DNA of 21,114 nt from a virus: IMG/VR virus record IMGVR_UViG_3300047668_000910, positions 1 through 21,114 of that record; one strand, 5' to 3'. Each line of letters begins with the position of its first letter. The first letter of the stretch is position 1. Below the pieces are notes generated by a model. That model had not been told where the DNA came from, did not search any database, and worked only from the letters and a program-made list of their open reading frames with translations. This document shows positions 4,311 to 21,114 of this stretch, piece by piece. A program made the translations under genes and the position numbers.

Positions 4311-7300
4311 ATGGCTATAATATATTATGCAGATCAAGATGTAAAAGGCTCGTTAACCACCGGAGGAATTATAACCTCTGGTGGTATAATGACAGCGCCG
4401 GGTGGTACGTCTACTCAGTGGAATACTTCGTATGACAACTCTATAGTAAGTTTAGCTGTATCAGGAACTAATACAAAAACGTTAACAGCCACTCAACAAG
4501 ACGGGGGTACTATTACAGCTTCTTGGGCAGACGATTCAGGAAGTAACAATTATTTGACCAGCTTAAGTTTTAATACTACTAGTGGTATATTAACAGCAGC
4601 AAGACAAGGCTTAAGTAGTGTAACAGTAGATCTGGATGGAAGATACGTTACGTCTTCAGGCGTAACATCTGTAGCTACATCAGGCACAAAAAACGGGTTA
4701 ACACTAACTGGAGGTACTATTACTTCTACAGGAACCATAGTATTAGGTGGAACTCTTGCTATTAACAATGGCGATTGGTCAGGTACAGATCTATCAATTG
4801 CCAACGGAGGTACAGGTGCTTCTTCAGCAACATCAGCATTAAGTAACTTAGGAGCTGCAACTATTGGTAAATCAATGTTCACGCTTGCGGATCCAAACGC
4901 TATAACTTTCCCAAGGTTTAACGCAAATAATAGCGTTACCGCGCTAAGTGCTAGTGCGTTTAGAACAGCAATTGGAGCAGGTACTTCATCCTCAACAGGT
5001 ACAGTTACAAGTGTAGGAATTTCTCATGGAGGAAATGCATTTAACACAGGTTCAGCAGTAACTACATCAGGTACACTTGCTATTACAATGGCAGGATCTG
5101 CTTCTCAGTATGTAAATGGTGCAGGTAATTTAACTACCTTCCCGAGTATACCTCAGGGTGATATAACTGGAGTTACCGCAGGTACAGGTATGACAGGTGG
5201 TGGTACTTCAGGTTCAGTAACACTAAACGTTATAGGAGGAACAGGTATTACCGCTAATGCAAATGATGTGGCTATAGATTACGCAGGTTCTGATTCTATT
5301 GTTATGGCTGCTCCCGGTGGATCTACTCCAGACGCAGATGATTATATGATTTACGGATCTGATTCTTCTGATGACGGATCTTCTAAAAATGTTCAATTTA
5401 TAGATATCCCTTTAAGTATTCTTGATAATGATTCTGGGTTTACATCATTTGCTGAACCAGGTATATTCTCTGGTGGAGGAACACCTACTTTAGCCTCAGG
5501 TGTAACAGCAGCAGAAGTTAGAACTTTAATCGGAGCTGGAACATCAAGTAGTGCAGGAGTAACGTCTATAGCAACAAGTACAGGATTATCTGGTGGTACA
5601 ATAACAAGTACTGGAACTTTAACCAATACAGATAGAGGATCATCACAAGCTATATATAAAAACTTTACAGCAAGTTCAGGTGGCACAGCTACTGCAAATA
5701 GTAACAATGATACGTTAACTATTGCGGCAGGTAGTAATATTACGACAGTTAGGTCTGGCGATACAATAACTATTAATGCTACTAATGATGGCCAAGGTGT
5801 AACATCTGTTGCAACAAGTGGCAGTGTAAATGGAATAACATTAACTGGAGGAACAATAACCTCTACAGGTACTATTACTTTAGGTGGATCAGTTGTTATT
5901 AATAACGGAAACTGGTCAGGTACAGACTTATCTGTAGCAAACGGTGGTACTGGATCAAGTTCTGCGTCTGGCGCAAGAAGCAATTTAGGTGTTGTCAATG
6001 ATACAGGTACTCCCGCGATTTTATCTAATGGTACTGTACCAAGTTTAAATACAGGTATATCAGCAGCTGAGGTTAGAAGTTTAATAGGAGCAGGAACAAG
6101 TTCAAGCGCAGGTGTAACATCTGTAGCTACTTCTGGTAGTGTAAGTGGTTTAACGCTTACAGGAGGTACTATTACAAGTACTGGAACTGTAACTTTAGGA
6201 GGAACTCTTTCTTTAACAAGCGCAAACGTAACAAGTGGTTTAGGATTTACTCCTTACAACGCTACTAATCCTGCAGGATACACTACCAACACGGGTACAA
6301 CAACAGCCTCAAACACACAAACTTTTACTAACAAATCCGGTAATATTAGTCAATGGACAAATGATTCGGGTTATACTACAAATGTAGGTGATATTACAGG
6401 AGTTACAGCGGGAAGCGGTATGTCAGGAGGAGGAACTTCAGGTACTGTAACTTTAACTAACGCAGACAAAGGGTCATCACAAAACATATATAAGAATATT
6501 GCAGTAAGTGGGCAATCTACTGTTGTTGCTGATAGTAATAATGATACTTTAACTTTGGTTGCTTCAGGTGGTATGACTATTACTACAAATGCTACTACAG
6601 ATACTATTACGTTTAATCCAAATGATAATAACGATAACTTTTATCTTGATGGTATAAGTAAATCAGGAAATACACTTACGTTTAGTGTATTAGGTACTAC
6701 AAACCAAACGTATACATATGGCTCTAATGCTTTTAATAGCACTACAATAGCAACAAACAATAACCAACTTACCAACGGTGCAGGTTATGTAACTAGTTCA
6801 GGTAATACTACTATAGGAACATCAACTAACATTGGTATTAGTGCAGGCGGTGCGGTTCTATCTACTGTAAGTTTAACACAAGGTGTTATAACTGCGTTTA
6901 CTACTAGAACAATGACATTAGCTAACTTGGGTTATACAGGCGCGACTAATGCTAATTATATTACAAATAACAACCAATTAACTAACGGAGCAGGATATGT
7001 AACGTCCTCAGGAGGTTCAATGTCTACCTGGATTTTAAAAGAAGGAAATGGTACAGAAACAAGTACTGTTACAAATGGCGAAACAGTAACTTTTGCACAG
7101 GGTGATGGTATACAATCTGAACTTACTTCTACTTCAAGTGGAGGAACATTAACTATAACTAACACAAAACCTAACATTGTTCAGACAACAATAACAGGTA
7201 ATGCAGGTTCTGCAACTGTGTTGCAAACAGCAAGAACTATAGCTGGTGTTTCATTTAATGGTTCAGCAAATATATCTTTAAATAATAACGCTATAACTAA

Positions 7301-9029
7301 TGGTGCAGGGTATACTACTAACACAGGGACTACAACAGCTTCAAATACACAAACTTTTACAAACAAAAGCGGTAATATATCACAATGGAGTAATAACAGT
7401 GGGTACACGACAAACACAGGAACTACAACTCCAAGTAATACACAAACATTTACCAATAAATCAGGTAACATATCACAATGGACTAACGACTCTGGGTATG
7501 TAACATCTTCAGGAGGATCAATGTCTTCTTGGATTATTAAAGAAGGTAATGGAACAGAGAGCACTACAGTTACTCAAGGAGAAACATTTACTATAGCTCA
7601 AGGAGTAGGAATTACATCTGAGATGACTTCTACTTCAAGTGGAGGAACTATACAAATTACTAACACAGGTAATACCACTATAGGGACCAACGACGATATT
7701 ACTCTTAATGATGCAAACGTTCTACAAACGTTAAACATGACGCAAGGTGTTGTAACTTCATTTATCACTAGAACATTAACTTTATCTAACTTAGGATATT
7801 CTGGTGCAACTAACGCAAACTACATTACTAACAATAATCAACTTACTAATGGCGCTGGGTACACAACAAACACTGGAACAACAACCGCCTCTAATACACA
7901 AACTTTTACTAATAAAAGTGGTAATATTAGTCAATGGACTAATAACTCAGGATATACTACTAACACAGGTACAATAAGCAGTATAAATGCAACAACCAAC
8001 GGTAATTCTTTAGAAGGATCTAACACGCTAACAGGAAACGGCACGCTGACATTAACCTGGAAAGGCAATACCGCTTCTTACGTAAGAGGTGATGGTTCGC
8101 TGGCTACTTTTCCAAGTATACCACAAGGTGATATAACAAATGTTACTGCAGGAACAGGTATGACAGGAGGTGGCTCTTCAGGCTCAGTTACATTAAATGT
8201 AATAGGCGGAGACGGTATAACGGCTAACGCAGATAATATTGTTGTAGATGGCACAGTTGTAAGAACATCGGGTACACAGAGTATTGCTGGTGCAAAAACA
8301 TTTACAACAACACCTATATCTGTAACAAGGGCAACAGCAGATAGTTCTACCTACTTAGCTACAACTGCATTTGTTAAAAATCAAGGTTATACTTCAAACG
8401 TAGGAGATATAACTGGCGTAACAGCAGGCACAGGCTTAAGTGGTGGAGGAACGTCTGGAACGGTATCAATAGGTGTGGATCTTAACGAGTTAAATGACAT
8501 TGATGGAGATGATCCAAATATAAAAGATTTTGTTGTAGTTTCTGGCGAAGATGAAAGTTGTAGGATTAGTTATAGCGATGCGGTTTTTGAAATAAATCAA
8601 GAATTACAAACACTACCTAACTTTCAGCAAACTCAATTTACAAGTAATTTTCTTGACGCTACATCAAGCACGTCTTACTTTATGATACCATTTAATAACA
8701 ACATTGAATCTACTTCCAATCAATATTATAATAATATTCCCGCTGCTGCTAATGGTAGAGTTGAAAAAATAATGTTAATGCATACTTCTGGCAGCATGAG
8801 CACCTCTTTTACTACGCAGTTAAGAGTTATAAAAAATGGAATTACAGCCGCTACGTCAGGAGAACTAACGCCCTCAAACGGTGCTAACGATGGAAGTTAC
8901 GTAGAATACGATGCAAACGTTAGTTTTTCAAAAGGAGATAGATTAAGATTTGCATATCAAAAAAGCGCAGGTAGTAAATACTGGCAAGGCGCAAGTGCAA
9001 TAGTAGTATTGTCATTTAAATCAGTGTAA
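4311..9029 (+). CDS. Giant modular repeat fibre protein (1572 residues)
   Basis: The largest gene in the window. It starts MAIIYYADQDVKGSLTTGG, echoing the previous fibre (MAINYYA). The shaft is built from shuffled modules. VTSVATSG...LTLTGGTITSTGT occurs at about nt 4660, 5797 and 6113. WSGTDLS(I/V)ANGGTG occurs twice. NTGTTTASNTQTFTNKSGNI then SQW occurs at about 6289, 7318, 7411 and 7864. SGGSMS.WI.KEGNGTE occurs near 7010 and 7510. GDITGVTAGTGM then GGG recurs four to five times. ADSSTYLATTAFV near nt 8340 is a widespread tail-fibre repeat. From about residue 1433 a non-repetitive beta-rich domain (FQQTQFTSNFLDATSS to the end) is probably a receptor-binding or trimer cap. The start follows an in-frame ATG-TAA pair directly abutting the real ATG. 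A long side-tail or central fibre is inferred. Confidence 0.88.
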   Translation: MAIIYYADQDVKGSLTTGGIITSGGIMTAPGGTSTQWNTSYDNSIVSLAVSGTNTKTLTATQQDGGTITASWADDSGSNNYLTSLSFNTTSGILTAARQGLSSVTVDLDGRYVTSSGVTSVATSGTKNGLTLTGGTITSTGTIVLGGTLAINNGDWSGTDLSIANGGTGASSATSALSNLGAATIGKSMFTLADPNAITFPRFNANNSVTALSASAFRTAIGAGTSSSTGTVTSVGISHGGNAFNTGSAVTTSGTLAITMAGSASQYVNGAGNLTTFPSIPQGDITGVTAGTGMTGGGTSGSVTLNVIGGTGITANANDVAIDYAGSDSIVMAAPGGSTPDADDYMIYGSDSSDDGSSKNVQFIDIPLSILDNDSGFTSFAEPGIFSGGGTPTLASGVTAAEVRTLIGAGTSSSAGVTSIATSTGLSGGTITSTGTLTNTDRGSSQAIYKNFTASSGGTATANSNNDTLTIAAGSNITTVRSGDTITINATNDGQGVTSVATSGSVNGITLTGGTITSTGTITLGGSVVINNGNWSGTDLSVANGGTGSSSASGARSNLGVVNDTGTPAILSNGTVPSLNTGISAAEVRSLIGAGTSSSAGVTSVATSGSVSGLTLTGGTITSTGTVTLGGTLSLTSANVTSGLGFTPYNATNPAGYTTNTGTTTASNTQTFTNKSGNISQWTNDSGYTTNVGDITGVTAGSGMSGGGTSGTVTLTNADKGSSQNIYKNIAVSGQSTVVADSNNDTLTLVASGGMTITTNATTDTITFNPNDNNDNFYLDGISKSGNTLTFSVLGTTNQTYTYGSNAFNSTTIATNNNQLTNGAGYVTSSGNTTIGTSTNIGISAGGAVLSTVSLTQGVITAFTTRTMTLANLGYTGATNANYITNNNQLTNGAGYVTSSGGSMSTWILKEGNGTETSTVTNGETVTFAQGDGIQSELTSTSSGGTLTITNTKPNIVQTTITGNAGSATVLQTARTIAGVSFNGSANISLNNNAITNGAGYTTNTGTTTASNTQTFTNKSGNISQWSNNSGYTTNTGTTTPSNTQTFTNKSGNISQWTNDSGYVTSSGGSMSSWIIKEGNGTESTTVTQGETFTIAQGVGITSEMTSTSSGGTIQITNTGNTTIGTNDDITLNDANVLQTLNMTQGVVTSFITRTLTLSNLGYSGATNANYITNNNQLTNGAGYTTNTGTTTASNTQTFTNKSGNISQWTNNSGYTTNTGTISSINATTNGNSLEGSNTLTGNGTLTLTWKGNTASYVRGDGSLATFPSIPQGDITNVTAGTGMTGGGSSGSVTLNVIGGDGITANADNIVVDGTVVRTSGTQSIAGAKTFTTTPISVTRATADSSTYLATTAFVKNQGYTSNVGDITGVTAGTGLSGGGTSGTVSIGVDLNELNDIDGDDPNIKDFVVVSGEDESCRISYSDAVFEINQELQTLPNFQQTQFTSNFLDATSSTSYFMIPFNNNIESTSNQYYNNIPAAANGRVEKIMLMHTSGSMSTSFTTQLRVIKNGITAATSGELTPSNGANDGSYVEYDANVSFSKGDRLRFAYQKSAGSKYWQGASAIVVLSFKSV

Positions 9030-9110: not shown

Positions 9111-9401
9111 ATGACAATTTTTTACCAGACTAGTTCGTGGAGTAGTCAACCACAAATTACACAAGAAACCTTAAACCTTTGGAAGCACGTAGCTGATAAA
9201 TCAAATTGGCGTATTGTGCAATTACCAAATGGTTTCTATCAAACCGAACACCAAGATCCAAATGAAAAAGATACTTGGCACGACGTCACAAGACGTGAAA
9301 CTTTAGAAGGAGCAGAACAAGCGATTGATTCATCAGTTGCTCATTACGCTAAAAAGCTAGAGTTCGCTAATGGACCAAAAGTCGTAAAGACCTTTAAGTA
9401 A
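9111..9401 (+). CDS. Small protein of unknown function between fibre and groEL
   Basis: A 96-residue soluble, charged protein (MTIFYQTSSWSSQPQITQET at the front). It has a beta-hairpin-like centre (WRIVQLPNGFYQTEHQDP, then WHDVTRRETLEGAEQAIDSS) and an amphipathic helix ending in KKLEFANGPKVVKTFK. There is no membrane segment, cysteine or catalytic motif. The start has a distinctive leader (ATACCAATACCA) after the short GC hairpin, so it may begin a new transcription unit. The arrangement (ETLEGAEQAIDSS followed by a helix) gives the impression of a conserved small accessory protein of marine phages that sits near tail fibre genes, possibly a fibre chaperone or connector, but that is an impression and not a demonstrated match. 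It lies 28 bases upstream of groEL. Confidence 0.7.
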   Translation: MTIFYQTSSWSSQPQITQETLNLWKHVADKSNWRIVQLPNGFYQTEHQDPNEKDTWHDVTRRETLEGAEQAIDSSVAHYAKKLEFANGPKVVKTFK

Positions 9402-9429: not shown

Positions 9430-10986
9430 ATGTCAGACTCAATAGTCAAAAATCTTAACTTCGGTGACGAAGCTAGGAAAAATGTATTTAAAGGTATAAC
9501 TAAACTCACAACTGCTGTTAGCTCCACATTAGGAGCTAGCGGTAAATGTGTAATGCTAGAAGATGCTAGCGGAAGACCAGTTATAACAAAAGATGGAGTT
9601 ACAGTTGCAGACTCAATAGTATTACTAGACCCAGTTGAAAACATGGGTGCTACTCTATTAAAAGAAGCAGCAAGAAAAACGGTGAGAGAAGCAGGTGACG
9701 GTACAACTACCGCAACTGTATTAGCTCATGCTATATTAGAAGAAGCTTATAAAGTTTCTAATAAAACAAATTCAAGAGAATTAAAAGATGGTATTAATTC
9801 TGCAGTTAAAAAAGTTATAAAATATTTAGAATCTACATCAATAGAAGCTAAAGGGCAAATGATAAATCAAATTGCCACTATATCTACCAACAACGACAAA
9901 GAACTTGGTTGTATCATTGCAGACGCTTTTAGATCTGTAGATAACACGGGTGTTGTCATGATGGAGACATCTGCTTCGGGTAAAACAGTGTTTGAAGTAG
10001 TTGATGGAGTTCAATATGATAAAGGAATTACTAATTCTCATTTTGTAACTAATCAACAATCAAAAACAGCAGAACTAGAAAATCCACTAGTGCTGTTAAT
10101 TGAATCACCAGTTGATACAATTAGACAAATACAATCAGTGCTAGAGTATGTAATAAAAAACAACAAACCTTTGCTTATTATAGGCGACTTAGAACAAGGT
10201 GTTTTATCAGCTTTAGCAATGAATAAAAAGAAAGGCAATATCAAGGTAAATGTTATAAACGCACCAACATATGGTGTTAATAAAAAACAAATACTTGATG
10301 ATCTTTCTTTGTTAACAGGTGCTACTATTATAAATGAAGATTTAGGCGATGACTTAGATATGATTCAAATAGAACATTTAGGATCTTGTTTAAAAAGCGT
10401 AACAACTCACCAAGATACAGTTATTCAAATAAAAGAAACATCAAAAGATGTTAATTTAATTATAGAAGATATAAAAGAAAAACTATCTAAAGATTTACCT
10501 GCTTATGAGGTAATAAAATTAGAAAAAAGATTAGCAATGCTCGCGGCTAGAATAGCCATAGTAAAAGTAGGTGCTAATTCTGATATTGAATTAAAAGAAA
10601 AAACAGATAGGGTTGAAGACGCTATTTGCGCTACGAAAGCTGCTGTTAAAGAAGGTATAGTATCAGGAGGTGGAATCGCTTTATTAAATGCCGCGCAACA
10701 TATTAAATCTAAATCAATAGGTGAGCAAGTATTATTAGAAGCAATTAAATCACCCTTTAGAACAATATTAGAAAACGCAGGCATTGTAGAGTATGATCTA
10801 CCTATTATGAAAGGTAAAGGTCTAAACGTGGTTACAGGAAAAATGGTAAATATGATTAAGTCAGGTATTATAGATCCTTTACTCGTTACAAAAAGTGCTC
10901 TTCAAAACGCAGCTTCAGTAGCTACCACGATATTGTCAACCGATTGTGTAATCAATAATTTAAGAATCGATGAAAGCAATAGGTAG
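9430..10986 (+). CDS. groEL: Phage-encoded chaperonin GroEL (Hsp60), lacking the GGM tail
   Basis: A 518-residue group I chaperonin, colinear with bacterial GroEL across equatorial, intermediate and apical domains. ATP-site residues are present: ITKDGVTVA with D55 (E. coli D52), GDGTTTATVLA with D90 (D87), VEDA with D397 (the hydrolysis D398), GGG at about 411-413, and DP in GIIDPLLV (D495). It should therefore be an active ATPase that folds proteins in the cytoplasm. The TLGPKGR loop is changed to TLGASGK. The apical groove is altered: E. coli GYLSPYF is GITNSHF here, so client or GroES contacts may differ. The flexible C-terminal GGM tail (about 25-30 residues) is missing; the protein ends soon after TTILSTDCVI. 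Its last 17 bases overlap groES. The groEL-then-groES order is reversed relative to bacteria. Likely clients are the phage's own capsid or fibre proteins (inference). Confidence 0.96.
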   Translation: MSDSIVKNLNFGDEARKNVFKGITKLTTAVSSTLGASGKCVMLEDASGRPVITKDGVTVADSIVLLDPVENMGATLLKEAARKTVREAGDGTTTATVLAHAILEEAYKVSNKTNSRELKDGINSAVKKVIKYLESTSIEAKGQMINQIATISTNNDKELGCIIADAFRSVDNTGVVMMETSASGKTVFEVVDGVQYDKGITNSHFVTNQQSKTAELENPLVLLIESPVDTIRQIQSVLEYVIKNNKPLLIIGDLEQGVLSALAMNKKKGNIKVNVINAPTYGVNKKQILDDLSLLTGATIINEDLGDDLDMIQIEHLGSCLKSVTTHQDTVIQIKETSKDVNLIIEDIKEKLSKDLPAYEVIKLEKRLAMLAARIAIVKVGANSDIELKEKTDRVEDAICATKAAVKEGIVSGGGIALLNAAQHIKSKSIGEQVLLEAIKSPFRTILENAGIVEYDLPIMKGKGLNVVTGKMVNMIKSGIIDPLLVTKSALQNAASVATTILSTDCVINNLRIDESNR

Positions 10987-11230
10987 AAATTTAATTATAC
11001 AAAAAACAAAAGAAGGAACCACTAAAACAAAAGGTGGTTTACTTCTTGCAGAAAACCAGAGAGAAGACATTAGATACGTAGAAGCAACAGTTGTTTCGGT
11101 AGGATCTGATATAGTTGGAATGAAAGAGAACGATAAGATCTTTTTTGATAGACACGCTGGTCATAAAATAGAATTAGAAAAACAAACGTATCATGTGATT
11201 AAAGCTCAGGATGTAGTTGTTGTTTTATGA
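10970..11230 (+). CDS. groES: Phage-encoded co-chaperonin GroES (Hsp10)
   Basis: An 86-residue GroES-fold protein, somewhat shorter than the bacterial ~97. The first strand is IGRNLIIQKTKE. A mobile loop (about residues 13-33) contains GGLLL, with LLL at the place of the GroEL-binding IVL tripeptide. A VEATVVSVGS strand corresponds to RGEVLAVG. ENDKIFFD corresponds to VGDIVIFN. The terminal strand is YHVIKAQDVVVVL. It would cap the GroEL ring and close the folding chamber in the cytoplasm. The start lies inside groEL (17-base overlap), so the two are probably translationally coupled and made in similar amounts. The stop overlaps the next start as ATGA. The hydrophobic tripeptide suggests a working partner for the adjacent GroEL, and possibly for host GroEL. 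Confidence 0.93.
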   Translation: MKAIGRNLIIQKTKEGTTKTKGGLLLAENQREDIRYVEATVVSVGSDIVGMKENDKIFFDRHAGHKIELEKQTYHVIKAQDVVVVL

Positions 11231-11670
11231 GAATAAGCGCACGTGACATTAAGGACTTAAACTTAATAAAACATTACAGAATAATACGTAAGTGGGCATG
11301 TAAAAACAATGACTTAAATGATGCTGATTTAGAACTATTAATTTATTTAGATTGTATAGGTTTTTTTAATAAAAAAGATTTTAAAATGGGTAGTTATTCT
11401 TACAGTTGGGATAACAGAAGATGGAATAGATTACTTAAAGAAGGTTGGATAATTGTATGGAGAAAAAGAAATAGATCTACACAGATGTTTAATATATACG
11501 AAGTGTCTTTTAAATGTAAGCAATTAATAAGTAGAATATACAGAATAATGCTAGGTGAAGAAGATCTACCAATAAGTAAAAGAAGAAACAAATTAATAGC
11601 TGGTAGTAGTTACACAGACAAAGTAATGACAAAAGCTATATATAATGTAAATAAAGATAAAAATAGATAA
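11227..11670 (+). CDS. Small basic protein, possible winged-helix DNA-binding protein
   Basis: A 147-residue, Lys/Arg-rich protein starting on an ATGA overlap with groES. The layout suggests helix (ARDIKDLNLIKHYRIIRKWA), helix (DADLELLIYLDCIGFF), recognition helix (NRRWNRLLKEGWII) and a beta-wing (VWRKRNR, MFNIYEVS), followed by a long basic helix (KQLISRIYRIMLGEE) and a basic tail. The phrase LLKEGWI.VWRKRNR followed by a strand is typical of winged-helix proteins of the MarR/replication-initiator kind, where a helix is followed by a hairpin. No enzyme motif is visible. Being translationally coupled to the chaperonins, it could regulate the late operon or act in packaging near DNA. The winged-helix reading is by eye and moderate. 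Some other small basic virion protein is the alternative. Confidence 0.7.
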   Translation: MRISARDIKDLNLIKHYRIIRKWACKNNDLNDADLELLIYLDCIGFFNKKDFKMGSYSYSWDNRRWNRLLKEGWIIVWRKRNRSTQMFNIYEVSFKCKQLISRIYRIMLGEEDLPISKRRNKLIAGSSYTDKVMTKAIYNVNKDKNR

Positions 11671-16875: not shown

Positions 16876-17092
16876 TATTAGAAAGATAAGTATTGGGTCT
16901 GACTACAAAAACGATGCTATGCATTATTCTGTAGGACAGCAAGTTTATGGTGGTCACGAAATATCACATATAATATTTGAAGACTCAGACAAATCCTATA
17001 ATATACATATTAAAAAAAACAATGAGGTATTGCCATGGAAGAAATTTAATTCTAACATGGCTATATCCGTTGAATATGATTTAGAATATTAA
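16865..17092 (+). CDS. Small conserved-looking protein upstream of the GroES-like gene
   Basis: A 75-residue protein, starting at ATG 16865 rather than the upstream TTG at 16853; ATG gives an 11-base overlap with the preceding stop. The sequence INNIRKISIGSDYKNDAMHY, VGQQVYGGHEISHIIFED, YNIHIKKNNEVLPWKKF, ISVEYDLEY is beta-rich with an amphipathic pattern and ends in a short acidic strand. The regular layout (lead strand, DYKNDAMHY, then VG..VYGG with paired strands, PWK, and a terminal strand) suggests a small conserved domain among related phages. I recall it only as a general pattern and not a named family. The TAATG overlap with the next gene implies coupled translation with the double GroES-like protein. 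Confidence 0.7.
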   Translation: MINNIRKISIGSDYKNDAMHYSVGQQVYGGHEISHIIFEDSDKSYNIHIKKNNEVLPWKKFNSNMAISVEYDLEY

Positions 17093-17697
17093 TGAATAGT
17101 TTATATGATTTTATTGTTGAACCTTTAGGTGATAAATACAGCAATACAATTATGGTGGATGGCAAAGAATTAGTAGTCAATACCAAAATAGAGGATTTTA
17201 AATTTGTAAATAGATTAGCTAAGGTTATAAAAACACCTTTAGCTTTTAATTTAGATATTAAAATTGGGGACATAGTAGTAGTTCACCAAAACGTGTTTAG
17301 AGTTTTCTATGATATGAAAGGAAAGAAAAGAAAAAGTAGATCTTTTTTTATAGATGATTTACATTTTTGTTCTATAGATCAAATATATTTATATAGAAAT
17401 AGTGAAGGTTGGAATACCGTAGGTGACAGGTGTTTTATAAAACCTATAAAAAGCAATCAATCTCTAACGGTTGATAAAGAACGCAGTCTTATTGGTATAC
17501 TTAAGTATGGCAATAGCTCTTTAAATGATTTAGAAATCAACCCAGGTGACTTAGTAGGTTATACACCTAACGGTGAATGGGAATTTTTAATTGAAAAAGA
17601 AAGACTTTATTGTATGAAATCTAATGATATTGTAATTAAGTATGAATATAAAGGAGACGAAGAAGAGTATAATCCTAGCTGGGCACATAGCGGTTGA
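17092..17697 (+). CDS. Double (tandem) GroES-like protein
   Basis: A 201-residue protein that can be read as two GroES folds in a row. Repeat 1 (about 5-101): DFIVEPL like the GroES lead strand RVIVK; NRLAKVIKTPL like the strand before the dome; NLDIKIGDIVVVH matching E. coli LDVKVGDIVIFN closely; DDLHFCSIDQIYLY like the closing strand. Repeat 2 (about 112-183): RCFIKPIKS, IGILKYGNSSL, INPGDLVGYTPN, RLYCMKSNDIVIKYE. A tail (EEEYNPSWAHSG) follows. A genuine GroES is encoded separately (10970-11230), so this one may have another role, such as a specialised cap for the phage GroEL or a virion structural use of the fold. Its loops lack the GroES-type hydrophobic tripeptide in an obvious place. 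It sits just before the terminase genes. Homology is inferred from sequence pattern. Confidence 0.75.
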   Translation: MNSLYDFIVEPLGDKYSNTIMVDGKELVVNTKIEDFKFVNRLAKVIKTPLAFNLDIKIGDIVVVHQNVFRVFYDMKGKKRKSRSFFIDDLHFCSIDQIYLYRNSEGWNTVGDRCFIKPIKSNQSLTVDKERSLIGILKYGNSSLNDLEINPGDLVGYTPNGEWEFLIEKERLYCMKSNDIVIKYEYKGDEEEYNPSWAHSG

Positions 17698-17923
17698 AGA
17701 GTTAATTAAAGTTGCTAAAGAGGCTATTATAGATTCAAAAGATGACATATCAGCTGATAGATTAAAAAATGCCGCTGCTACAAAAAAACTTGCTATATTT
17801 GATGCTTTTGAAATTCTGAATAGAATCAAAGAAGAAGAAGATATGTTAGAGGATAAACCTAAGGAAGTTAAAGAAGAAAAATCTTTTAAAGGTTTTGCTG
17901 AAGGAAGATCTAAAAATGTATAA
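17642..17923 (+). CDS. Putative terminase small subunit
   Basis: A 93-residue, almost wholly helical, charged protein (LAGHIAVEELIKVAKEAI, then DDISADRLKNAAATKKLAIF, DAFEILNRIKEEEDMLE), with a basic/acidic tail ending SFKGFAEGRSKNV. It lies directly upstream of the large terminase, overlapping it by 8 bases, and overlaps the double GroES-like gene by 56 bases in another frame. Small terminases are helical DNA-recognition proteins that form rings and deliver the phage genome end to the large subunit. Size, helix content and position fit, but no winged helix is evident. The identity therefore rests mostly on position. Start ATG 17642 is the first in frame and is taken as likely; a shorter start would still lie inside the overlap. 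Confidence 0.55.
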   Translation: MNIKETKKSIILAGHIAVEELIKVAKEAIIDSKDDISADRLKNAAATKKLAIFDAFEILNRIKEEEDMLEDKPKEVKEEKSFKGFAEGRSKNV

Positions 17924-20126
17924 GCAAACTTTATATAAAGTCTTAAAAGACTACGTGAAACCTAAAGTTCTTAATAGAATCAATAGGTATAAAAAATGGG
18001 AATATGGTTATAACAAAGAGCATGATTTAATAGTTATAAGTAAGACAGGTGAAATAGGTGAGATTTATGAAATCCAAAATCTTAAAATAGCTTTGCCTAA
18101 ACAAAAAGATGTTGTTGAGTTTGAAGATGACAAATGGACCTATACACAATACCCAAAACAATTAAGTAGAATTAAATCTGTTTTTGACTGGGAAGAATAC
18201 CCACCAGAATTTAAAGAAAAATGGTATGACTATATTGATAAAGAATTTACAAGACGTGAAGAAGGTTTTTGGTTCATTAACAAAGGTATTCCTACTTATA
18301 TTACTGGTACTAATTACATGTACCTGCAGTGGTCCAAGATTGATGTTGGGCAACCAGACTTTAGGGAATCAAATAGATTATTCTACATTTTCTGGGAAGC
18401 TAGCAAAGCCGATATCAGGTCTTACGGGATGTGTTATCTTAAAAACCGTAGGTCAGGTTTCTCATTTATGTCCTCAGCTGAATCAGTTAATCTTGCCACA
18501 ATATCAACAGATTCACGATACGGAATATTATCTAAATCTGGTGCCGATGCTAAGAAGATGTTCACCGATAAAGTCGTACCAATATCCGTTAACTATCCCT
18601 TCTTTTTCAAACCGATTCAAGACGGTATGGACAGACCTAAAACCGAACTTGCTTATAGAGTGCCTGCCTCTAAATTTACCCGTAGAAAACTTGATTCAAA
18701 TCAAGCCATCAAAGAGATTACCGGTTTGGATACCACCATTGACTGGAAGAACACCGGTGATAATGCTTACGATGGAGAGAAGCTTAGGCTCCTTGTTCAT
18801 GATGAATCAGGTAAATGGGAAAGACCAAATAATATTCTTAACAACTGGCGCGTTACAAAAACAACCCTTAGATTAGGTAGTAGAGTTATTGGAAAGTGTA
18901 TGATGGGATCAACATCAAATGCTTTAGATAAAGGAGGTAGAAATTTTAAGAAACTATACGATGATTCAGACGTTACAAAAAGAAACGCCAATGGACAGAC
19001 TCGCTCAGGATTATATTCTTTGTTCATACCTATGGAATGGAACTACGAAGGATACATTGATTCTTATGGCTTTCCTGTATTCGAAAAACCATCTAATGAA
19101 ACAGTAGGACCTGATGGTTTGCGTATAGGTATAGGTGTTATTGAATATTGGAACAATGAAGTAGATGGCCTTAAAGATGATCAAGATGGATTAAATGAAT
19201 TTTACAGACAGTTTCCACGTACAACTAAACATGCATTTAGAGACGAAAGTAAACAATCTTTATTTAATCTAACTAAGATATATCAACAGATAGATTATAA
19301 CGAAGATGAAAGAAATTCTTTAAGTGTAACTAAAGGAAGTTTTCAATGGGAAAACAACAAAAAAGACTCAAGAGTTATATTTATGCCAAATAAAAATGGT
19401 AGATTTTTAATAACTTGGGTACCGCCTTTTAATTTACAAAACAAAAGGTTTATAAAAAATGGTGTTAACTATCCAGGCAATGAGCATTGCGGTGCTTTTG
19501 GTTGTGATCCATATGATATATCAGGAACAGTAGATGGTAAAGGTTCTAATGGATCTTTACATGGTTTAACTAAGTTTAGTATGGAAGAAGTTCCACCTAA
19601 TCATTTCTTTTTAGAATACATAGCTAGACCTCAAACTGCTGAGATCTTTTTTGAAGATGTATTAATGGCCTGTGTATTTTACGGCATGCCAATATTAGCA
19701 GAAAATAATAAACCTAGACTCTTGTATCATTTTAAACGTAGAGGTTATAGAGGGTTTGCAATGAACAGACCAGATAAAAAAAGAAATAAATTATCAATTA
19801 CAGAAAGAGAAATAGGTGGAATACCTAACTCTAGTGAAGATATAAAACAATCACACGCTTCTGCTATAGAAACATATATAGAACACTTTGTTGGATTAAA
19901 AGAAAATGGTTATGGAGATGTTTACTTTCAAAGAACGTTAGAAGACTGGGCACATTTTAATATAAATAATAGAACAACGCATGATGCTTCTATTAGTTCA
20001 GGTCTAGCTTTAATGGCTTGTAACAAACACATATACTCTCCAGTAAATAAGATAGAATTACCGGCGATTGATCTTGGTATAAAGAAATATGATAACAAAG
20101 GAACTACATCAAAAATTATAAGTTAA
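17916..20126 (+). CDS. terL: Terminase large subunit (packaging ATPase-nuclease)
   Basis: A 736-residue DNA-packaging motor. The upstream TTG at 17895 is rejected in favour of the ATG at 17916, which overlaps the previous stop by 8 bases. The N-terminal region carries the REEGFWFINKGIPTYITG, then YMYLQW element typical of this terminase group. The Walker A place is KNRRSGFSF (about 176-184), an unusual form without a canonical GK(S/T). Walker B is RLLVHDE with D296-E297. The C-terminal RNase H-like nuclease has D531 in FGCDPYD and D690 in THDASISSG as likely metal ligands. It powers DNA entry into the prohead and cuts concatemers. The portal gene follows with a TAATG overlap, the usual order. 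Recognition is strong from several motifs. Confidence 0.92.
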   Translation: MYKQTLYKVLKDYVKPKVLNRINRYKKWEYGYNKEHDLIVISKTGEIGEIYEIQNLKIALPKQKDVVEFEDDKWTYTQYPKQLSRIKSVFDWEEYPPEFKEKWYDYIDKEFTRREEGFWFINKGIPTYITGTNYMYLQWSKIDVGQPDFRESNRLFYIFWEASKADIRSYGMCYLKNRRSGFSFMSSAESVNLATISTDSRYGILSKSGADAKKMFTDKVVPISVNYPFFFKPIQDGMDRPKTELAYRVPASKFTRRKLDSNQAIKEITGLDTTIDWKNTGDNAYDGEKLRLLVHDESGKWERPNNILNNWRVTKTTLRLGSRVIGKCMMGSTSNALDKGGRNFKKLYDDSDVTKRNANGQTRSGLYSLFIPMEWNYEGYIDSYGFPVFEKPSNETVGPDGLRIGIGVIEYWNNEVDGLKDDQDGLNEFYRQFPRTTKHAFRDESKQSLFNLTKIYQQIDYNEDERNSLSVTKGSFQWENNKKDSRVIFMPNKNGRFLITWVPPFNLQNKRFIKNGVNYPGNEHCGAFGCDPYDISGTVDGKGSNGSLHGLTKFSMEEVPPNHFFLEYIARPQTAEIFFEDVLMACVFYGMPILAENNKPRLLYHFKRRGYRGFAMNRPDKKRNKLSITEREIGGIPNSSEDIKQSHASAIETYIEHFVGLKENGYGDVYFQRTLEDWAHFNINNRTTHDASISSGLALMACNKHIYSPVNKIELPAIDLGIKKYDNKGTTSKIIS

Positions 20127-21114
20127 TGAATATATATACTAACACCAATAGCGCTTTCCCTAGTCAAGTAGTGAGTGATGCAGAAAAAGCAAGTATTGAA
20201 TACGGTAGTCAAGTAGCAATGGCTATTGAATACGAATGGTTTCGTTCAGGAAGAACTGCTGGTAATAGATACTTAACTAATTGGAATAATTTTCACGACT
20301 TACGACTCTACGCTCGTGGAGAACAAAGCATACAAAAATACAAAGATGAATTGTCTATTAATGGCGATTTGTCTTATCTTAATTTAGACTGGAAACCAGT
20401 ACCAATATTATCTAAGTTTGTAGATATAGTTGTTAATGGTATATCTAGTAAAAGTTACGACATAAAAGCTTATGCTCAAGATCCTTCTTCTGTAAAGAAA
20501 AGAACAGAATATGCCTCTAAACTACAAGAGGACATGGTTGCTAAAGAGTATTTAGAATCATTAAAATCTACTTTAGGTATAAATCTATATCAAAGTCCAA
20601 ATCCAGAAACAATACCTGAAAGTCCAGAGGAACTAGAATTGCACATGCAACTTAGTTATAAGCAATCCATAGAAATAGCAGAAGAAGAAGCTATATCAAC
20701 TGTGTTGGCCCAGAATAAATACGACTTAATAAGACGTAGGATAAACATGGACTTGACTACAATAGGTATTGGAGCAACTAAAACAAATTTTAATCTAGCC
20801 GAAGGAGTTACAGTTGATTATGTAGATCCTGCTTATATGGTTTATTCGTATACTGAAGATCCTAATTTTGAAGATATATATTACGTAGGTGAATTAAAAT
20901 CTATAACAATACCTGAGCTTAAAAAAGAGTTTCCTAATATTTCAAAAGAAGAATTAGATAGAATTCAAAAAATGCCAGGTAATAGATCATATGTAACTGG
21001 TTGGGGTGATTATGACGAAAACACTGTTCAAGTGTTGTATTTTGAATACAAAACATATCACAATCAAGTTTTTAAAATAAAACAAACAGATCAAGGTTTA
21101 ATGAAAGCTTTAGA
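20126..21114 (+). CDS. Portal protein, N-terminal part (runs off the right edge)
   Basis: An open frame of 329 residues and still going. It starts MNIYTNTNSAFPSQVVSDAE on a TAATG overlap with the terminase. Residues 30-110 (EYGSQVAMAIEYEWFRSG, LTNWNNFHDLRLYARGEQSI, LNLDWKPVPILSKFVDIVVN) fit the start of portal proteins: a helix followed by a conserved D(W/L)KP.PI..KF.D...NG.  Later features (RRINMDLTTIGIGATKT, then VDYVDPAYMVYSY) match the typical portal core, where DP.Y/F.. marks the strand before the crown. It would form the dodecameric channel at one head vertex where terminase docks. The C-terminus is outside the window. The call rests on pattern and on the classic terminase-portal order. 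Confidence 0.88.
   Translation, partial: MNIYTNTNSAFPSQVVSDAEKASIEYGSQVAMAIEYEWFRSGRTAGNRYLTNWNNFHDLRLYARGEQSIQKYKDELSINGDLSYLNLDWKPVPILSKFVDIVVNGISSKSYDIKAYAQDPSSVKKRTEYASKLQEDMVAKEYLESLKSTLGINLYQSPNPETIPESPEELELHMQLSYKQSIEIAEEEAISTVLAQNKYDLIRRRINMDLTTIGIGATKTNFNLAEGVTVDYVDPAYMVYSYTEDPNFEDIYYVGELKSITIPELKKEFPNISKEELDRIQKMPGNRSYVTGWGDYDENTVQVLYFEYKTYHNQVFKIKQTDQGLMKAL

Follow-up and report, generated by a model that had tools for sequence, protein, structure and literature searches.

In green plastids, single and tandem co-chaperonins form hetero-oligomers with seven Cpn10 domains, and chloroplasts (Chlamydomonas CPN11/20/23, Arabidopsis Cpn20) combine their own Cpn60 with single and head-to-tail tandem Cpn10 proteins (PMC5780408). 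Phage T4, which relies on host GroEL, encodes the co-chaperonin gp31, in which the mobile loop is longer and the roof loop is missing (PMC6318259); RB49 CocO is likewise a phage co-chaperonin with a longer loop. Phages EL, OBP, and AR9 encode GroEL-like ATPase rings (gp146, gp246, and gp228, respectively) that are independent of a co-chaperonin, and single-ring forms exist (PMC9598537). Genes for both GroEL and GroES occur in the Flavobacterium phages elemo and immuto, Cellulophaga phage phi38:1, Maribacter phage Panino, and the Manatee Spring phage, and the Panino paper names both homologues (PMC11590407). GroEL was reported in related marine Bacteroidetes phages, in 36 environmental genomes belonging to a Flavobacteriaceae phage group of which phi38:1 is a member (Nishimura 2017; PMC5332604). 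In phi38:1, GroEL peptides turned up both in infected cells and in samples of free virions (PMC13288928), showing that the protein is made by this relative at least.

The stretch of DNA analysed here (the window) is a whole IMG/VR record of 21,114 bases, classed as linear and probably a fragment. The virus belongs to a common aquatic group whose hosts are probably Bacteroidota, judging from the hosts of its relatives. Unlike T4, the phage encodes its own GroEL together with two co-chaperonins. Unlike the proteins of EL, OBP, and AR9, its GroEL comes with a GroES and retains the classical group I signatures (EL GroEL is ~26% identical to it); the two co-chaperonin genes set the locus apart from the EL/OBP/AR9 type, in which no co-chaperonin is encoded beside the ring gene. 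The features to which we refer are as follows:

4311-9029, upstream of groEL: 1572-aa repeat-rich fibre-like protein (BppL_N match)
9111..9401, + strand: 96-aa protein upstream of groEL, function unassigned, retained in many but not all relatives
9430..10986, + strand: groEL, 518 aa, group I chaperonin subunit (Pfam, PHROG, residue alignment)
10970..11230, + strand: groES, 86 aa, single-domain Cpn10 (Pfam, PHROG)
11227..11670, + strand: MarR-like winged-helix protein, 147 aa (PHROG_17028), 4-base overlap with groES
17092..17697, + strand: second co-chaperonin, 201 aa, predicted tandem Cpn10-fold (PHROG, AlphaFold2 model)
17642..17923, + strand: 93-aa ORF between the tandem co-chaperonin gene and TerL (ORF call)
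17895..20126, + strand: terminase large subunit, TerL (PHROG), landmark for the tandem gene
20126..21112, + strand: portal protein, open at the contig end, so that only the gene start is in the record

As here, a GroEL, a single-domain GroES, and a tandem-type co-chaperonin are all encoded by four named phages, elemo (Elemovirus, NC_055853; gp43/gp44/gp30), Panino (PP540027), Manatee (MW202828), and phi38:1 (KC821614), whose GroELs are only ~33-41% identical to the window protein. The GroEL gene precedes the GroES gene in elemo, Manatee, and Panino, as in the window, while in phi38:1 GroES comes before GroEL. A first-pass annotation of the window had proposed that the phage carries a folding chamber of its own. 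A complete, selected pair of phage lineage is indeed present, but such pairs are already known and annotated in cultured phages; the new part is the tandem second co-chaperonin.

The GroEL-GroES pair and its surroundings

The first-pass annotation had described full-length GroEL and GroES genes overlapping by 17 bases in reversed order, with intact ATPase aspartates and altered apical residues in GroEL, and each of these points was confirmed. The coordinates are exact, the two genes lie on the same strand in different frames, and Pfam and PHROG agree on both products. GroEL matched PF00118 (Cpn60_TCP1) with an E value of 3e-57, above the curated cut-off, and PHROG_5725 with an E value of 5e-132, covering positions 6-510. 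Equivalents of the E. coli ATP/Mg residues G32, D52, D87-T91, D398, and D495 show no variation among the 78 clade members compared; with its full-length Cpn60 fold and ATPase signature residues, the protein is a group I chaperonin. Six apical substitutions have become fixed across the clade (Y199L/I, S201N, Y203H, L234Q, V263A, and V264M); F204 and L237 are retained. The GGM tail is absent, as had been noted, but its absence lends no support to the specialised client range that had been read partly from it, since the tail is absent or shortened in 21 of 21 phage GroELs compared; it is present in 77 of 79 bacterial GroELs. Two further segments are shorter than in all 79 bacterial proteins (10 versus 15-18 aa, and 21-22 versus 25-28 aa), and these are the segments that in E. 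coli GroEL bear the inter-ring contacts, around E434 and S463/V464. Because these contact segments are shortened, the phage GroEL ring is predicted to be single or weakly paired.

The groES product matched PF00166 (Cpn10) with an E value of 2.8e-14, above the curated cut-off, and PHROG GroES with an E value of 4e-13. It is a Cpn10 domain with a mobile loop and a hydrophobic tripeptide, and the GGLLL mobile loop is invariant or nearly so. The loop is 3 aa longer than that of E. coli GroES (26 versus 23 aa). The roof segment is 9 aa shorter than in E. coli (11 versus 20 aa), a gap that is smaller relative to the likely host, since Bacteroidota GroES roofs are ~15 aa. In both respects phage GroES resembles the gp31 type, whose traits relative to GroES are a longer mobile loop and a missing roof.

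An IMG/VR scan with GroEL revealed 526 contigs encoding a relative, the best 80 at 77-100% identity. In the best 80 of these 526 relatives, the order GroEL then GroES is kept in 80 of 80 and the two genes share 1-23 bases (almost always 17 or 20), whereas among bacterial or phage loci with a GroES within reach, GroES comes first in 76 of 77. Relatives of GroEL were also found in 277 GenBank phage records, in 208 of them over at least 80% of the length. Relative to the window, dN/dS ranged over 0.07-0.16 in groEL and 0.14-0.19 in the tandem gene and reached 0.22 in groES, whose closest pair gave zero, the overall span of 0.07-0.22 referring to divergent pairs of all three chaperonin genes. The three genes are under purifying selection; this and their intact frames rule out a pseudogene or frameshift.

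Every gene-like ORF across 719-21112 lies on the + strand, and the label of a late operon given to the chaperonin pair is plausible on this account. A scan for sigma-70 promoters and terminators returned 43 sites versus 36 expected, which is not informative. The pair had been described as flanked by fibre and virion genes, which is correct upstream, where the 1572-aa fibre-like protein with recurring NTQTFTNKSGNISQW-type motifs is encoded, but not directly downstream: groES is followed by the gene for the MarR-like protein, and further on come small unknown proteins, a holin, TerL, and the start of the portal gene. In most of the best 80 IMG/VR relatives, the MarR-like gene has the same 4-base overlap with groES as in the window; it adjoins groES in nearly all relatives and also in elemo and the Manatee phage, there on the opposite strand. 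The MarR-like protein is a candidate regulator of the chaperonin genes.

The 201-aa protein encoded near TerL

The more unusual feature of the window, the gene at 17092-17697, was missed by the first-pass annotation. Its product matched PHROG_13932 (co-chaperonin GroES) over the full length with an E value of 3e-23. A Pfam search with the window protein gave no match; Cpn10 was matched weakly by 17 of 42 family members, and the phi38:1 copy (gp089, 5848-6432 of the stretch examined, annotated as hypothetical) scored above the Pfam Cpn10 cut-off with its C-terminal domain. An AlphaFold2 model built from 42 relatives (mean pLDDT 84.5) contains two domains, at about 1-104 and 105-185, followed by a clade-specific C-terminal tail. 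The best PDB match of the model is 7ekq_R (Foldseek E value 4.3e-6; VIA Z 9.6, rmsd 4.7, 157 residues over model positions 1-185, ~12% identity), a Cpn20 co-chaperonin subunit of the Chlamydomonas ClpP complex with two Cpn10 domains arranged head to tail. The next structural matches are GroES chains, which cover the C-terminal half only (Z 8-9), and T4 gp31 gave a Z of 6.5. Among BFVD models, the 'Chaperonin cpn10' of Cellulophaga phage phi18:3 was matched over the full length (E value 6e-14). A plain GroES was rejected as the identity of this protein, which has 201 aa and is predicted to repeat the fold in a second domain. The tail (17668-17697), conserved in the window clade, has NPSWA near its end and is missing from the versions of the elemo and Manatee types.

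At the level of profiles, domain 2 aligned to bacterial GroES with a probability of 94%, and none of 60 column shuffles equalled this result. Domain 1 fell short of significance against bacterial, phage, and combined Cpn10 profiles (one of 100 shuffles was equal), so the evidence for its fold comes from the predicted model together with the tandem match; its weak alignment to phage GroES falls in the expected register. The whole protein aligned to phage GroES by hhalign with a probability of only 20%. A search for sequence similarity between domains 1 and 2 found none, which argues against a recent internal duplication. Model confidence is low where the two mobile loops are expected (about 20-40 and 121-130). 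In domain 1, residues 27-29 form a hydrophobic tripeptide, [LF]-[IV]-[VL], in most of 44 sequences; the domain 2 loop has none, and domain 2 may for this reason not bind GroEL. The product of 17092-17697 is thus predicted to consist of two head-to-tail Cpn10-fold domains, as in Cpn20; both are present in the model, and domain 2 is recovered by profile too.

Records selected for carrying this GroEL had the tandem gene in 16 of 16 cases (searched whole or over the covering region), and those selected for the tandem gene had one GroEL and one single-domain GroES in 9 of 9. Its profile gave no match in eight other GroEL phages (immuto, Va1, SJC03, D506, cr108_1, MW202566, JM-2012, and EL), and no copy was found in a Flavobacteriaceae sample of 397 genomes, where scoring covered only the leading candidates of each genome. 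Five phages were compared for gene position (the window, elemo, Manatee, Panino, and phi38:1): in each, the tandem gene immediately precedes TerL or is separated from it by a single small ORF, whereas groEL/groES varies in place and strand. The constant position therefore ties the tandem protein to the head/packaging module. In the window, the tandem gene and groES are ~6 kb apart. The 93-aa ORF at 17642-17923, for which a family search gave no match, may by its position encode the small terminase subunit. In the four named phages, existing annotation of the tandem protein goes no further than GroES or hypothetical; in Panino, the single-domain GroES beside groEL (PP540027, 68128-68394) is labelled hypothetical and the tandem protein carries the GroES name. 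We found no mention of the double-domain nature of these proteins in the accessible papers, and no phage tandem co-chaperonin or phage Cpn20 in the open-access subset of the literature.

Compared with chloroplast Cpn20, the phage tandem protein is ~12% identical, its two domains are dissimilar in sequence, and the loop of domain 2 is degenerate. A profile search of PDB sequences with the tandem family did not reach the 7ekq chains, and sequence kinship with plant or algal Cpn20 was not found. Most likely, the phage protein arose independently of plastid Cpn20, and we propose that it works like a plastid Cpn20 rather than being one.

A proposed folding system and the alternatives

We consider it probable (about 0.6) that GroEL, the single-domain GroES, and the Cpn20-like tandem co-chaperonin form a dedicated three-part machine for the folding of virion proteins. 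The GroEL ring with its intact ATPase would be the first part of the phage's own system; the overlapping frames would ensure that ring and GroES lid are made together, and the tandem co-chaperonin would be supplied from the head/packaging module beside TerL. Late in infection, phage proteins in a non-native state, most likely those of the head, would enter the ring, which, once loaded, would be capped with ATP. We infer that the tandem protein caps the phage GroEL ring. The lid may be assembled from both kinds of subunit, by analogy with green plastids; for example, three tandems and one single subunit would provide seven Cpn10 domains. Alternatively, there may be two lids, each for different clients. 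Because the tandem gene is constantly found beside TerL, the clients are probably proteins of the head rather than fibres. A more specific version, with a hetero-oligomeric lid of single and tandem subunits that evolved independently of chloroplasts, possibly sits on a single-ring GroEL, and serves head assembly, is offered tentatively. Speaking against the three-part machine are the lack of significance of domain 1 at the profile level and the missing tripeptide of domain 2; in addition, the tandem gene and groES, given the distance between them, may differ in timing, and host co-chaperonins could suffice.

It seems unlikely that the tandem protein caps a different ring, i.e., host GroEL, host ClpP, or a ring of the phage head/packaging module, for example portal or terminase. 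The location of its gene in the TerL-portal module, away from groEL, would fit such a role, as would one degenerate loop out of two and the best structural match, in which Cpn11/20/23 caps chloroplast ClpP; yet the tandem gene accompanies phage GroEL and GroES in every whole record tested and was not found in the eight outside GroEL phages, and domain 1 retains its hydrophobic tripeptide at the position of the GroEL-binding motif. An ordinary GroEL-GroES pair that boosts host folding, with no specialised client and no functional tie to the tandem protein, could be expected from the unrelated phages immuto and SJC03, which have GroEL and GroES and in which the tandem gene was not found. We regard this as quite improbable, given the clade-fixed apical substitutions and shortened inter-ring contacts of phage GroEL, the gp31-like loop and roof of phage GroES, and the conservation of a second co-chaperonin in the GroEL-GroES phages of this set.

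Group I chaperonins are bacterial in origin, and this counts for the view that the genes are recent host cargo, which we nevertheless consider highly improbable. A database search and a GroEL tree, which the first-pass annotation had proposed as a check, placed the protein outside host clades, with undecayed active sites. The closest bacterial GroELs in GTDB contigs are ~43% identical, and none higher was found, while viral relatives number in the hundreds. In a quick tree of 100 proteins, including 79 bacterial rows, the window clade groups with the Bacteroidota-phage GroELs of elemo and Panino and lies apart from every bacterial row, though the phage branches are long and deep joins were not used. 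Identity of at most 43% to bacterial GroELs and this placement exclude a recent acquisition of GroEL from a host. In the same tree, the GroEL of Vibrio phage Va1 clusters with gammaproteobacterial GroELs, suggesting a separate, host-derived acquisition.

To our knowledge, a parts list of GroEL, a single lid, and a double-length lid is otherwise known only from chloroplasts. If the three-part machine is real, the same list would have been reached independently in small, cultivable phage genomes (elemo, phi38:1), where plastid questions would become testable: for what reason both single and double co-chaperonins are required in green plastids, and how a lid with an even number of domains can sit on a seven-fold ring. 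A virus would then supply an entire folding chamber, specialised lid included, and this would be relevant to how widespread aquatic Bacteroidota phages build their heads in an otherwise taken-over host.
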